This document shows, one piece after another, positions 6,634 to 11,895 of a DNA stretch of 33,451 nt. The first letter of the stretch is position 1. Each line of letters opens with the position of its first letter. Below the pieces are notes generated by a model. That model made no database searches and was not told where the DNA came from. It saw nothing but the letters and a program-made list of their open reading frames with translations. This DNA is from an uncultured Chthonomonas sp. Its GTDB lineage: Bacteria > Armatimonadota > Chthonomonadetes > Chthonomonadales > Chthonomonadaceae. Made by a program: the position numbers and the translations under genes. Location: NCBI GenBank assembly GCA_903919615.1, contig CAIXIX010000339.1:1-33451 (forward strand). The letters are read 5' to 3'.

Positions 6634-7626
6634 ATGCGTTTCGACGTTTTTGGAATGTGCAACCCTTTGTTTGATATCCAGGCAGAAATATCAGATGATG
6701 TTCTTGCAGGGTTGGGATTTGAAAAGGGCACGATGCGACTAATCGACGAAGGCGAGCAAAAGCGCCTAGTTGCAACTATCTATGAGAACATCGTGAACGC
6801 AGAGTCGGGAGGTTCAGGAGCCAATACAATGATTGGCCTGGCGCAGCTCGGCGGCAGCGGATGCTTCACGGGCAAGCTTGGAAATGATGAGCATGGTGTC
6901 CTCTATGCTCAAAGCCTCACTTCACGAAATGTACATTTGCCGGCCATAGTTGGTAACGGGACTACCGGCATCTGTGTGGTGCTCATCACTCCGGACGCAG
7001 AAAGAACACTTTGCACGTTTCTAGGAATTAGTCGCGAGCTAGGGCCAGATGATCTGGATAGGGATTCAATCGCATCCAGCAAGTACATCTACATCACGGG
7101 TTACCTTTGGGATACCGAGTCTCAACAGGCAGCCGTGGTTCGCGCCATGGAAATTGCAAAGGAACATGGTGTGAAAGTCGCGCTTAGCCTGTCAGATCCA
7201 TTCTGCGTTGGCCGCCATAAAGAGGCATTCCTAAGCTTGACGGAGCAGTACGTCGATCTCCTCATCGGCAACCATGAGGAGATGCAGGCGCTAACTGGCT
7301 GCAGTACGCCAGAAGCAGCTATTTTGGCGACATCATCGATCGCAGACATGGCTGCAGTTACAGTAGGAGCAAAGGGTTCAATAATTCGAAGCGGCAATTC
7401 TCTATGTGCCATCGGCGGCTTTCAAGTTGACCCCGTAGATACGACGGGCGCGGGCGATATGTATGCCGCGGGCTTGCTCTACGGATTAACACACGACCTC
7501 AGCATTGAGCATACAGGCAAGTTGGCCGGCTACGTCGCGTCACGAGTTGTCGCTTCGCTTGGCCCGAGGCTTTCAAGTCTGGACGACGATTACGTAACAG
7601 GGCTACTCACGCGTAAACCTTCTTAA
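6634..7626 (+). CDS. PfkB-family carbohydrate/nucleoside kinase (adenosine kinase-like)
   Basis: The 330-residue protein is a ribokinase-fold sugar or nucleoside kinase. It shows the N-terminal substrate-binding region with SGGSGANTMIGLAQLGG (58-74), the inner GNHEEMQ motif (212-218), and the C-terminal signature DTTGAGDMYAAG (269-280), where D275 is the expected catalytic base and GAG forms the anion hole. Length and the early MCNPLFDIQAEI segment are closest to the adenosine kinase-like branch, which phosphorylates adenosine or related sugars with ATP; the exact substrate is not readable. A GAGAGG ribosome-binding site precedes the ATG. A weak hairpin (CCAAC-TAAAA-GTTGG) follows at 7651-7665. 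Confidence 0.9.
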   Translation: MRFDVFGMCNPLFDIQAEISDDVLAGLGFEKGTMRLIDEGEQKRLVATIYENIVNAESGGSGANTMIGLAQLGGSGCFTGKLGNDEHGVLYAQSLTSRNVHLPAIVGNGTTGICVVLITPDAERTLCTFLGISRELGPDDLDRDSIASSKYIYITGYLWDTESQQAAVVRAMEIAKEHGVKVALSLSDPFCVGRHKEAFLSLTEQYVDLLIGNHEEMQALTGCSTPEAAILATSSIADMAAVTVGAKGSIIRSGNSLCAIGGFQVDPVDTTGAGDMYAAGLLYGLTHDLSIEHTGKLAGYVASRVVASLGPRLSSLDDDYVTGLLTRKPS

Positions 7627-7770: not shown

Positions 7771-7896
7771 CTGTTATTCGCGCTGGCTAAGGGGGTCGGG
7801 GGTTAGGTTGTCCTTCCCCGGGTCGGACTGTTGTGCTATTACTGAAGCAATACTGGTCTCGATTTGAAAGTTCACCTGGCCCAAGGAGAGAATACG

Positions 7897-9885
7897 GTGG
7901 CTAAATTAAACTCCAGGTTGAATACGCCTGAAAAGCGCGCCAGGATCGGCGAACGAATTAAGGTTGCTTCAACTCAGGCTGGGTTGTCACTTAAAGAGCT
8001 GGCAGCATCAACGGGTACAACACCAACACTTATATACCAATACGTACGCGGGATCATTTCACCACCACAAGAACTGATCGAAAAAATCGCTGCTGTAACT
8101 CGCGTCCACACAGATTTCTTCGATCCGGATAAAGAGGCCCGTAGTGCGCTTGCACTTCGCGCTGACCAGCCAACTCCGCCTGGGTCTTCCGTTTCTGAGC
8201 AGGCTGCAGAACCTGGTACGCTGGCGCGCATCAAATCGGAAATGGAGCACCTCCAGCAGCTTCGGGAAGCTTACCTCTATCCGAAGCGTAATCGTCCAGC
8301 ATACATTTCAACGCTAGAGCAGATGCTCGGCCTGGCCCGAACGATCGACAATCGAAGGCAGGAGGCATGGATTCACTGGCAGCTCGGCAAAATCAAGATA
8401 GAAGATAACGCTTACGATGAAGCACGCTCGCTCATGCAAAAGGCGAGAACCATGTTCCAGGAAGAGGGCATGGCCGAGTACCATCAGATGGTAGCGCTCG
8501 ACCTTGTAGTTGTGTACGAAGCGACCGGCCACCTCGAAGAGGCTAAACAGTGCCTTGAGTCTCTCACAGACGTCGAGAATACGGACGTTAAATGGCGCAT
8601 CCTTGTTAGCCTCGGTGGGCTGTACTACCGAATGCATAACAACGAAGCCGCGCTTCGATGCTTCTGTCAGGCTGCCGAGCACATCGAAGCGATGGATTCA
8701 GAAACTCGCGAAAAAGACTGCATGATAGCGCTAACAACGAATATTGCTGCGATCGCGAGAGCGACAGGACACCAGGCGGAGGCAGTCATACTCTGGAGCC
8801 AATGCCTGCAGCAGGCAACTGACCAGAGACTTGCCGATCATTTCCTTGAAGCGCTGATGAACATCGCCGAAACCCTCAAGGATATGGGAAATCTTGCTGA
8901 AGCCCGGCAGCGCCTAGAACTTGCGGTTGTACTTGCTGGTTTCTTGTTCGACGATGAAGCACGGTTGAGTGTAGCCCGTGCGCGCCTTGCGGAACTGCTC
9001 GTCTCCGCCGGACAGATCGAAGAAGCACGAGACAATGCGCGCACTTCTATGAAAATGGCTCTGTCGGTTCGTTCGCCAAAACCCACGATCTTGTCGGCGC
9101 TTGCCCTTGGCGAGACCTATCTGGCATCAGGGCAGTGGCGCGACACACTGGACTACGCGCAAGAAGCACTGGATGAAGCTCGACGGACGCGGCGTACTGC
9201 CGAGGTAGCTCGCGCTCGCGAGCTGCGCGCAAGAGCCTATCTTGTTGGATGCAAAGAAAAACTTGCTGTGAGTGACGCAGTTCAGGCATCGGAAGCATTA
9301 AATCACGCGTTTGCCGAGGCAGCATCATCTCTCGACAATGCAATTCGAGCAGATGCTGTACGTGAGATCTTGGCCGCCAGGATTACTCTGGCGAGATGCC
9401 ATATGTTGAACGGCCAGGACGCTCAGGCGGAAGATGAATCTCGCGCTGCTACGGATCTGTGCGATTCGGGAGCGATCACTCTGCCGCGACTTATGGGTGC
9501 AGAGGCTGAAACCCTTCCAGAACTCCTCAAATCTCCTGAGATCGACCTCGCCGCGATTTTTTCGAGCCGCAAGGTAGATATTCCAAGCATGGAGTGGCAA
9601 GCCCACTATCTGCACGGCACGCTTCTCACCAGAAGGCTAGGTCCGGGAGCGGGATTCGATTCATATCTCCATGCAGCAACGATTGTCGCAAATACTGTCG
9701 CTCTAATCGCCCCGGCTGACGTCAATAGATTTAATCATCGTCATCCTGAAGTTCGGGACCTATTTGATAAGTTGGACGCGAGCGCAATTAATGATACATC
9801 CCGTGCGGCGGTTCAGGAGTTGCGTAAGGCAGTGCCCACGCTAATTGCCTCGCAGAGTTCTCAACCTGCTATTGGCGCGTCATAA
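7897..9885 (+). CDS. XRE-family HTH regulator with long TPR domain
   Basis: I choose GTG at 7897 because AAGGAGAG lies six bases upstream; an upstream TTG at 7864 would add 11 residues. The 662-residue protein has an N-terminal Cro/C1-type helix-turn-helix (about 14-68, including LSLKELAASTGTTPTLIYQY). A linker follows, then repeated helical hairpins of tetratricopeptide type from about residue 120 to 560, such as WIHWQLGKIKIEDNAYDEAR and ALMNIAETLKDMGNLAEA. HTH-TPR proteins are DNA-binding regulators whose TPR part binds a peptide, protein or ligand; RNPP/Rgg receptors of Firmicutes are a much shorter example. It has no membrane segment. The gene is monocistronic, ends at a strong bidirectional hairpin, and faces a secreted protein carrying a duplicated short motif. 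The ligand is unknown. Confidence 0.88.
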   Translation: MAKLNSRLNTPEKRARIGERIKVASTQAGLSLKELAASTGTTPTLIYQYVRGIISPPQELIEKIAAVTRVHTDFFDPDKEARSALALRADQPTPPGSSVSEQAAEPGTLARIKSEMEHLQQLREAYLYPKRNRPAYISTLEQMLGLARTIDNRRQEAWIHWQLGKIKIEDNAYDEARSLMQKARTMFQEEGMAEYHQMVALDLVVVYEATGHLEEAKQCLESLTDVENTDVKWRILVSLGGLYYRMHNNEAALRCFCQAAEHIEAMDSETREKDCMIALTTNIAAIARATGHQAEAVILWSQCLQQATDQRLADHFLEALMNIAETLKDMGNLAEARQRLELAVVLAGFLFDDEARLSVARARLAELLVSAGQIEEARDNARTSMKMALSVRSPKPTILSALALGETYLASGQWRDTLDYAQEALDEARRTRRTAEVARARELRARAYLVGCKEKLAVSDAVQASEALNHAFAEAASSLDNAIRADAVREILAARITLARCHMLNGQDAQAEDESRAATDLCDSGAITLPRLMGAEAETLPELLKSPEIDLAAIFSSRKVDIPSMEWQAHYLHGTLLTRRLGPGAGFDSYLHAATIVANTVALIAPADVNRFNHRHPEVRDLFDKLDASAINDTSRAAVQELRKAVPTLIASQSSQPAIGAS

Positions 9886-9929: not shown

Positions 9930-9973
9930 AAAGATCAGGGCTGAATGCGCAGACGCATTCAGCCCTGATCTTT
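9930..9973. terminator. Strong bidirectional terminator hairpin
   Basis: A perfect 20-base-pair stem (9930-9949 with 9954-9973) with a four-base CAGA loop lies between two convergent genes. The outer pairs are AAA/TTT, giving short T-tracts on both strands (TTTGTTTCTG on the plus side). Confidence 0.9.
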
Positions 9974-10028: not shown

Positions 10029-10643
10029 TTAGTTTGATGGCGCTATCTGTTGCATATGTCGACCACCGGTTGAAGTTACATCACCAAGTGTTGTCACGAG
10101 CGCCGCGCCTTCACCATTGGTCCATATGAAGTTAGACGGTGATGAGCCAAATCGTACAAATCCATCAGCCCACATGTAGACGCCATTCGCGTACAGAAAA
10201 TCCCCGTTTGCAAACCCGTAGGTGCCATCTGCATAGACTGAAATATTGTTAACCACGGCAAGAACTGCAGCTGATGGTGGTATCGGTAGCCCACCGCCGC
10301 CTGGCAGAGGCGTATCGAACACAGAAAAATTCAGGTTCCGACCTAAATCTGAAGCCGTTAGTACATCAGGCAATACCGCATAGCCATACTCGAACGTGGA
10401 TATTGTTTCAATGCTGCTTAGGCTTAGGCTGGCGGATTGCAGAGTAACACCAGCAGTTGAAAACAAGCTTCCGCTCGAGAGAGTATTCGCCACGATAGTT
10501 GAAGGAGGTATTGGCAAACCACCTCCGCCTGGCAGCGGTGACTGTGCCTTCGCGGAGGTCGCAAACAGCGCAAGGCCAAGAGTGAATATGCTAATTGTAG
10601 AAGTAAGTATTGCAATACCAGATGTTCGTCGGGTCGTGTTCAT
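10029..10643 (-). CDS. Secreted protein with duplicated PLPGGGGLPIPPS motif and seven-residue repeats
   Basis: The 204-residue protein starts with a signal peptide: basic NTTRR, a hydrophobic core to about residue 29, and likely cleavage after AKA (31-33). Directly after cleavage comes PLPGGGGLPIPPS (36-48), repeated exactly at 112-124. From 137 to 161 the sequence repeats every seven residues: YADG, FANG, YANG, WADG, each followed by three variable, mostly aromatic or aliphatic residues. This suggests a small beta-solenoid-like or surface-binding element. No catalytic motif or sorting signal is visible. A clear AGGAG ribosome-binding site precedes the ATG. It converges on the HTH-TPR gene across a strong terminator. 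I do not recognise the family; an extracellular structural, adhesive or signalling role is possible. Confidence 0.8.
   Translation of the reverse strand: MNTTRRTSGIAILTSTISIFTLGLALFATSAKAQSPLPGGGGLPIPPSTIVANTLSSGSLFSTAGVTLQSASLSLSSIETISTFEYGYAVLPDVLTASDLGRNLNFSVFDTPLPGGGGLPIPPSAAVLAVVNNISVYADGTYGFANGDFLYANGVYMWADGFVRFGSSPSNFIWTNGEGAALVTTLGDVTSTGGRHMQQIAPSN
10272..10310 (-). repeat. Second copy of the 13-residue PLPGGGGLPIPPS coding repeat
   Basis: This encodes residues 112-124 of the secreted protein. It is identical in protein to the first copy (10500-10538), but seven of thirteen codons differ, all silently. Confidence 0.9.
10500..10538 (-). repeat. First copy of the 13-residue PLPGGGGLPIPPS coding repeat
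   Basis: This encodes residues 36-48, just after the predicted signal-peptide cleavage site. It pairs with the copy at 10272-10310. Confidence 0.9.
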
Positions 10644-10980
10644 CGGAATCTCCTATCGTTCAGTATCTGAGCGATTAACGGTTGCATGGAGGGAACTTCC
10701 CACTCCAGTGCAATTCATTTCTGTAGGCTTGTACTAGTATTCGCCTCAAAGTTATACACATTATATCGTCTTTTAGTTCTATTAGTCTAGCTATTGTATC
10801 GATTCAGAACTTTTTTTATTATATATTTTTTTCTTGCTGGTTTTGGTCAGTATTTCAGTCGCTTTTCGTCATGCCAGAATAGGTGGCGAACGGCGTGTGT
10901 TTCGTCTATGAGGTATAGTTTTGCTCCTGAAACTAGCCGCCTACTTCGATCGTGTAACCATAAATAACGAGGACCCTACA
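10644..10980. other. Divergent intergenic region, AT-rich in the middle
   Basis: These 337 bases separate the minus-strand secreted protein gene from the plus-strand sulfurtransferase. Nearest the left gene is its AGGAG ribosome-binding site. The middle (about 10800-10850) is a T/A tract. A TATAGT at 10914-10919 could be the -10 element for the sulfurtransferase, without a good -35. A lone TTATACACA resembles a DnaA box. I see no gene here. Confidence 0.5.
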
Positions 10981-11895
10981 TTGAACACCGCGTCTCAAAG
11001 CGTCGATCTTACAGCCGAACATCTGGTATCTGCGAATTGGCTGCAAAGAGAGATCGAAAATGGAAACAGCAATATTAGAATCGTAGACATGCGAGGATAT
11101 GTGCAGGTCAAGACCGATTCTGGTGGATATCAGGAAGCTGATTACTTAGGGGCCATAGAAGATTTCCGGAAGGAACATATTCCAGGAGCAATCTATCTGG
11201 ACTGGACCAGTGACATTGTCGATATGGAGGATCTTGTGCCGGTTCAATCGGCAGCACCCGAGGCATTAGCGTCGCGTTTCGGCAGCTGCGGCATCGACAA
11301 TACAACGTTGGTAATCGCATATGACGCGCATCCTGCAATGCAATTTGCCACTCGGCTGTGGTGGCTGTTCCGCTACCTTGGAAACAAGAATGTTCGCGTC
11401 TTGGAGGGCGGATGGAATGAATGGCTCGCTTCGGGGCGCCCCACCACGTCGGATATATCGCTATTTCCACCAAAGTTCTTTTCCTCTCAAGTGGATCCCA
11501 AATGGCGTCTCTCAGCACAGGACGTTCTCCAACAGTTGCAGACAAGAAATCCGTCGGTTAGAATCTTAGATGCACGTGACGCTGAACAGTTCACTGGCTT
11601 GGTTCGACGTGGACCGAGAGGAGGACATATACCGGGCGCAGTAAATATCCCGCGCGAGGCGCTCTTTGCATCCCCAGGTAAGCTTCGGCCGGTAAGCGAG
11701 CTAAAGGATGTATTTCAATCGGCTGGCATAAAGAATCCCGATGAAAAGCCCGAGATCATTGCGTACTGCAATGGTGGTGTGGCGGCTACATCCGTTTTGT
11801 TCGCTCTCTCGATCCTTGGTTACTCTCAGCTTGGAAACTACGACGGATCTTGGAACGAGTGGACGGAACAAAGGGATCTTCCTATTGAGCCGTAA
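10981..11895 (+). CDS. Two-domain rhodanese-type sulfurtransferase (thiosulfate/3-mercaptopyruvate)
   Basis: The family moves a sulfane sulfur from thiosulfate or 3-mercaptopyruvate to an acceptor through a cysteine persulfide. I choose TTG at 10981 (304 residues) because GAGG lies eight bases upstream; the frame is open from TTG at 10921. The first rhodanese domain (about 10-155) ends in the inactive AYDAHPAMQFATR loop, where D115 replaces cysteine, as usual. The second domain (about 175-300) has the active loop AYCNGGVAATS with C263. The loop sequence CNGGVA differs from both the classic TST (CRKGVT) and MST (CGSGVT) loops, so donor preference is uncertain. The inter-domain HIPGAVNIP and DGSWNEW sequences are typical of the family. 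It appears monocistronic. Confidence 0.9.
   Translation: MNTASQSVDLTAEHLVSANWLQREIENGNSNIRIVDMRGYVQVKTDSGGYQEADYLGAIEDFRKEHIPGAIYLDWTSDIVDMEDLVPVQSAAPEALASRFGSCGIDNTTLVIAYDAHPAMQFATRLWWLFRYLGNKNVRVLEGGWNEWLASGRPTTSDISLFPPKFFSSQVDPKWRLSAQDVLQQLQTRNPSVRILDARDAEQFTGLVRRGPRGGHIPGAVNIPREALFASPGKLRPVSELKDVFQSAGIKNPDEKPEIIAYCNGGVAATSVLFALSILGYSQLGNYDGSWNEWTEQRDLPIEP

Follow-up and report, generated by a model that had tools for sequence, protein, structure and literature searches.

Quorum sensing in which peptides act on cytoplasmic TPR receptors has been described for the Bacillota and their phages. The sex pheromones of Enterococcus are derived from lipoproteins, with the signal lying inside the lipoprotein pre-protein, and the receptor PrgX is an HTH-TPR protein. 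In yeast, the alpha-factor precursor carries several identical peptides, set apart by short spacers, behind its signal peptide. RRNPP propeptides with several pheromone copies have been documented, for example multi-copy Phr (PMC11343458). The RRNPP_detector rule looks for a receptor of 250-500 aa with an adjacent propeptide of 10-100 aa, and the validated RRNPP receptors are 285-473 aa long with propeptides of 21-50 aa (PMC10075063).

Here we analyzed a stretch of 33,451 nucleotides from an uncultured Chthonomonas sp. (family Chthonomonadaceae, order Chthonomonadales), the window, whose genome (G000) comprises 7.4 Mb in 614 contigs, and compared it with a congener (G001) and two members of other genera (G008 and G010). 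In the window, a gene for a putatively exported repeat protein of 204 aa, a candidate peptide precursor (10029..10643, minus strand), lies next to a gene for a 673-aa HTH-XRE and TPR regulator, a candidate peptide receptor (7864..9885, plus strand). As in the RRNPP(A) systems (Rap, Rgg, NprR, PlcR, PrgX, AimR), the gene for the putatively exported protein adjoins that for a cytoplasmic TPR protein, the peptide copies within a candidate precursor are identical or nearly so, and the peptide varies by lineage; the HTH-TPR architecture of the regulator is also that of NprR, PlcR and Rgg. Unlike the RRNPP systems, this locus belongs to the phylum Armatimonadota, has a peptide unit of 13-14 residues and a convergent gene order, and encodes an extra C-terminal region in the candidate precursor. 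The window regulator has both the TPR repeats and the transcription-factor HTH of the RRNPP criteria, but its 673 aa exceed the 250-500 aa set for receptors, and the candidate precursors of the window (204 aa) and of G001 (262 aa) exceed the 10-100 aa set for propeptides, a range into which only the 83-aa protein of G008 falls. The phylum also lies beyond the published RRNPP criteria, by which, given the lengths of the candidate receptor and precursor in the window, the system is not a member, but it may still work like one. The identical peptide copies behind a predicted signal peptide, with short spacers, are also reminiscent of the yeast alpha-factor precursor, which differs in its eukaryotic processing and membrane receptor and with which we do not claim homology.

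Silent-only divergence between two copies of a peptide

The repeat gene is preceded by a Shine-Dalgarno-like AGGAG (10650-10654), and residues 1-33 of its product form a predicted Sec-type signal peptide, MNTTRRTSGIAILTSTISIFTLGLALFATSAKA (10545..10643, minus strand), with signal-peptidase cleavage read by eye between ATSAKA and QS. A first-pass annotation of this DNA had claimed that a 13-residue peptide occurs twice in the secreted protein and that seven of its 13 codons differ between the copies, all of them silently. We confirmed both copies of PLPGGGGLPIPPS, one at residues 36-48 (10500..10538, minus strand), starting two residues past the predicted leader cleavage, and the other at residues 112-124 (10272..10310, minus strand), and found that the seven silent codon differences amount to eight nucleotides (pS about 0.62). 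If there were no constraint, eight substitutions in the PLPGGGGLPIPPS codons would be silent throughout with a probability of about 1e-4, and since silent divergence is high, the copies are not recent. The further claim of the annotation, that the peptide is selected and the duplication not recent, is thus supported, and it is strengthened by silent-only copies in the congener (seven) and in G008 (three); we conclude with high confidence that selection acts on the peptide itself.

Perfect intragenic repeats of at least 10 residues are rare. In 827 kb of sequence, comprising the window and portions of two related genomes, 4 of some 800 non-overlapping ORFs have one, and among the three besides the repeat gene is an ORF with YTSGSTGQPKG, which is known as the functional motif of NRPS adenylation domains. 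A motif search across the genome and its congener with the degenerate pattern PL.GGG..P.PP recovered the two copies of the window and the seven of the congener orthologue and no others. The repeat protein had no match in Pfam or NCBIfam, and among PDB sequences its one match, a weak one, was with a viral protein (E 3e-4) and covered 32 residues outside the repeats. A search of its own genome for paralogues of the whole protein returned only the protein itself, and a contig scan queried with it gave no match. Its AF2 model had a pLDDT of 31 and was set aside.

The C-terminal region (10032..10271, minus strand) follows a YADG..NGDFLYANG..WADG pattern, in which the ADG and NGDFLYANG elements recur, and is common only to the window protein and that of the congener. 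A different part of the window protein weakly matches (31%, E 0.009) a 783-aa frame in the distant genome L003. In the divergent intergenic region between the repeat gene and a rhodanese gene (10644..10980), sigma-70-like -35/-10 elements for the repeat gene (10789-10760, minus strand) were no more numerous than expected by chance, and a search upstream of the genes for a shared operator or inverted repeat gave nothing convincing.

A peptide fixed within each protein and different between genera

At the same genomic place, the congener encodes an orthologue of 262 aa (54% identity over residues 107-198) in which seven tandem copies of DIPLTGGGNPPMPP are joined by variable linkers (ATIL, ASIL, AFIM, ASLL) and followed by a C-terminal region as in the window protein. 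These copies differ by at least 17 nucleotide changes with zero replacements in the 14-residue core (P about 2e-10), and their pairwise silent divergence ranges from 0.18 to 0.88. The 83-aa protein of G008 consists of a leader and, separated by short spacers, three copies of EGGGVGSGGAPPP, and has no other domain; the first copy sits directly at the predicted mature N-terminus, and the at least seven changes among the three are all silent (P about 2e-4). The counterpart in G010 is an exported protein of 105 aa, again at the same place and without a repeat, that has one Pro-rich stretch, EGWGYLRPPSAFPS, right behind its leader.

The window and congener peptides have 9 of 13 positions in common, and the window peptide shares little with the G008 or G010 sequence. 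The peptide is therefore fixed inside each protein and different between genera. The first-pass annotation had held that its claim would fail if the motif were absent or highly variable in orthologues, and this came out half each way: the copies are identical within each protein, while the sequence shifts between genera. Identity within proteins combined with change between genera argues for selection that keeps a lineage-specific peptide rather than one universal motif.

The neighbouring HTH-TPR regulator and its gene neighbourhood

The regulator matches HTH_3 (PF01381, E 3.6e-9) over the Pfam cut-off, as it does TPR_12, TPR_19 and other TPR families; its orthologues are 40-51% identical and, where full-length, about 660 aa long. 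In the AF2 model (pLDDT 83.7) a long TPR superhelix comes after the HTH. The model aligned with Rap in its pheromone-bound form (Z 27.0, rmsd 4.9, 349 aligned), with NprR-NprX (Z 22.2) and with AimR (Z 19.6), as well as with degron-bound APPBP2 (Z 30.0), MalT (Z 28.8) and further TPR proteins. In these fold searches the RRNPP structures were not clearly above unrelated TPR proteins and, since the latter score as high, the fold fits a peptide receptor but is no proof of one. A search of a viral fold library returned generic TPR-like proteins only. The alignment to MalT, to its domain III, reflects a TPR superhelix that MalT-like regulators also have; unlike MalT and other STAND proteins, the window regulator has no Pfam ATPase match, and its N-terminal HTH is of the XRE type rather than a LuxR HTH. 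The genome also encodes four oligopeptide-binding proteins (PF00496).

Between the convergent regulator and repeat genes lies a strong bidirectional terminator hairpin (9930..9973), near-perfect with 20 pairs and able to serve both genes. On the other side of the repeat gene is a conserved flanking gene for a rhodanese-like sulfurtransferase (10981..11895, plus strand), with an uncertain start in an ORF that opens at 10921. The order of convergent HTH-TPR gene, repeat gene and divergent rhodanese gene is retained in G000, G001 and G008; in G010 the regulator is split across two contigs and the order of the trio is inferred over the contig break. The genes outside the trio are not constant: TrpB is found there in G000 and G001, and an enolase-like gene in G008 and G010. 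The three genes have thus been held together through rearrangement. The rhodanese was considered as a functional partner and rejected, since 14 other rhodanese orthologues of the order have no repeat gene upstream (for L058, within the 400 bases upstream).

The regulator orthologues in G006, G011, L046, L048, G018 and G027, the last four of which are outside the family, have no such exported neighbour, so the pairing of regulator and candidate precursor is not universal. In G001, G008 and G011 a gene for an ECF-type sigma factor lies immediately upstream of the regulator in the same direction, which fits a regulatory role. In three relatives (L007:5190-6822, L035:3853-5385 and L034:2530-4138) an ECF-type sigma factor and a Pfam-less protein are encoded directly upstream of the HTH-TPR regulator; the window lacks both and has a PfkB kinase gene (6634-7626) ahead of its regulator gene. 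G008 also encodes an exported protein of 668 aa (L139:16818-18824, plus strand) with many imperfect (D)LHDFGG repeats that resembles a secreted propeller-type repeat protein.

Paralogous regulators paired with lipoproteins

Paralogues of the regulator, 24-29% identical to it, occur throughout the family (17 of 17 genomes), and two genomes from another family of the order have closer relatives of these paralogues. In a tree, the group of the regulator and that of its paralogues separated with full support. At 21 of 21 paralogous HTH-TPR loci (L005, L006, L015-L031, L109, L110), the adjacent downstream gene, co-directional with that of the regulator, encodes a lipoprotein with a conserved TGG(S/G)xPxG motif. 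In its full form, (F/L/I)(T/S/D)GG(S/G/H)(I/V/F)P(P/I/T)(G/A), this motif lies 2-9 residues past the lipidated cysteine, and the lipoproteins show CarboxypepD_reg/Ig-like similarity. A degenerate search for the motif in 31 genomes gave 22 matches, about one per genome, of which 14 are lipoproteins beside an HTH-TPR gene and eight are not this protein type. We rejected the motif as a general lipoprotein sorting signal given that 14 of the 22 matches lie beside HTH-TPR genes.

On a profile of the lipoprotein motif, the congener repeat LTGGGNPPM scored 13.9 bits, above all background ORFs that had not been fetched with the motif; scores were weak for the window motif (5.4) and for G008 (4.5) and negative for G010. 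The resemblance of the congener repeat (LTGGGNPP) to the lipoprotein motif, noticed after the fact and mainly in one genome, is suggestive. A peptide signal within a lipoprotein pre-protein and an HTH-TPR receptor would also recall the Enterococcus sex pheromones, although the enterococcal signals derive from the part of the signal sequence ahead of the cysteine whereas the conserved motif here comes after it.

A candidate peptide-signalling system

Given identical repeats (two, seven and three copies) beside a receptor-like DNA-binding protein, the repeat protein may be a signal-peptide precursor. By analogy with RRNPP systems, it could well be that the repeat protein is a multi-copy precursor of a peptide signal and that the neighbouring cytoplasmic TPR regulator is its receptor. 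The gene product would be exported and would hold a Gly/Pro-rich signal peptide in several identical copies, and proteases would release the peptide from it after export. Cells would take the released peptide back up, for example with an oligopeptide permease. In the cytoplasm, the neighbouring XRE-type regulator would then bind it with its TPR superhelix, which would alter the control of that regulator over its targets. The paralogous regulator/lipoprotein pair with its TGGSxPPG motif would be a sister system.

It is conceivable, and we propose it tentatively, that peptide signalling extends across this order of Armatimonadota, with large XRE-TPR receptors and cognate exported Gly/Pro peptides that would act in an RRNPP-like manner and constitute a new class of ligand. 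The peptide would then be either the single TGGSxPPG motif at the mature N-terminus of a lipoprotein or an amplified multi-copy precursor, whose PLPGGGGLPIPPS, DIPLTGGGNPPMPP and EGGGVGSGGAPPP forms would have diversified by genus. Literature searches of open-access papers found no report of peptide signalling for the Armatimonadota. If correct, this would be an RRNPP-like family of cell-cell signalling outside the Bacillota, in a little-cultured phylum, and would provide ready sets of predicted pairs of ligand and receptor, with two, three or seven copies of the ligand depending on the lineage, whose specificity is open to study by peptide exchange. The silent-divergence signature could then also serve to find such precursors in genomes without known homologues; a literature search on silent divergence in precursors of pheromones turned up nothing that we used.

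Alternative explanations

As the main alternative, the repeats could serve an ordinary secreted protein outside the cell, as a motif for binding or structure (surface adhesion, a scaffold or a Pro-rich docking site), with the linkage to the regulator reflecting expression control only or being incidental. This is a serious if somewhat doubtful possibility. Gly/Pro-rich segments are common in surface proteins, the sizeable YADG/NGDF C-terminal region of G000 and G001 exceeds what a pheromone precursor needs, and the CarboxypepD_reg/Ig-like similarity of the lipoprotein partners points the same way. However, the two to seven copies are strictly identical despite silent divergence of up to 0.88, a strictness not normally seen in flexible linkers, and the secreted structural repeats in our background scan differ between units. 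Further, once the leader and repeats of the G008 protein are accounted for, no domain remains.

A role inside the cell appears unlikely, in which the TPR regulator would bind the motif before export, on the precursor or on the lipoprotein pre-protein, and so sense synthesis or export load rather than a peptide from outside. Such feedback would accord with a motif near the export leader in the lipoproteins, G000, G008 and G010, and autoregulation would predict the adjacent, co-directional lipoprotein and paralogous regulator genes, but multiplication to seven copies and copies far from the leader are not readily explained by it. That the copies are processing or sorting sites (for protease recognition or for outer-membrane or surface targeting) without a signalling role seems quite improbable: the segment past a lipoprotein cysteine can hold sorting signals and the motif does lie right behind the leader, yet a general signal is hard to reconcile with about one match to the lipoprotein motif per genome, mostly beside HTH-TPR genes. 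A RiPP reading was not favoured given the Sec-type leader and the lack of a modifying enzyme among the window genes read. Finally, we consider it most improbable that the silent-only pattern arose by chance or because part of a low-complexity protein was recently duplicated. The fourfold degeneracy of Gly and Pro codons does make silent change easy, but the probabilities given above for the window and the congener already allow for codon degeneracy, and the high silent divergence indicates copies that are not recent.
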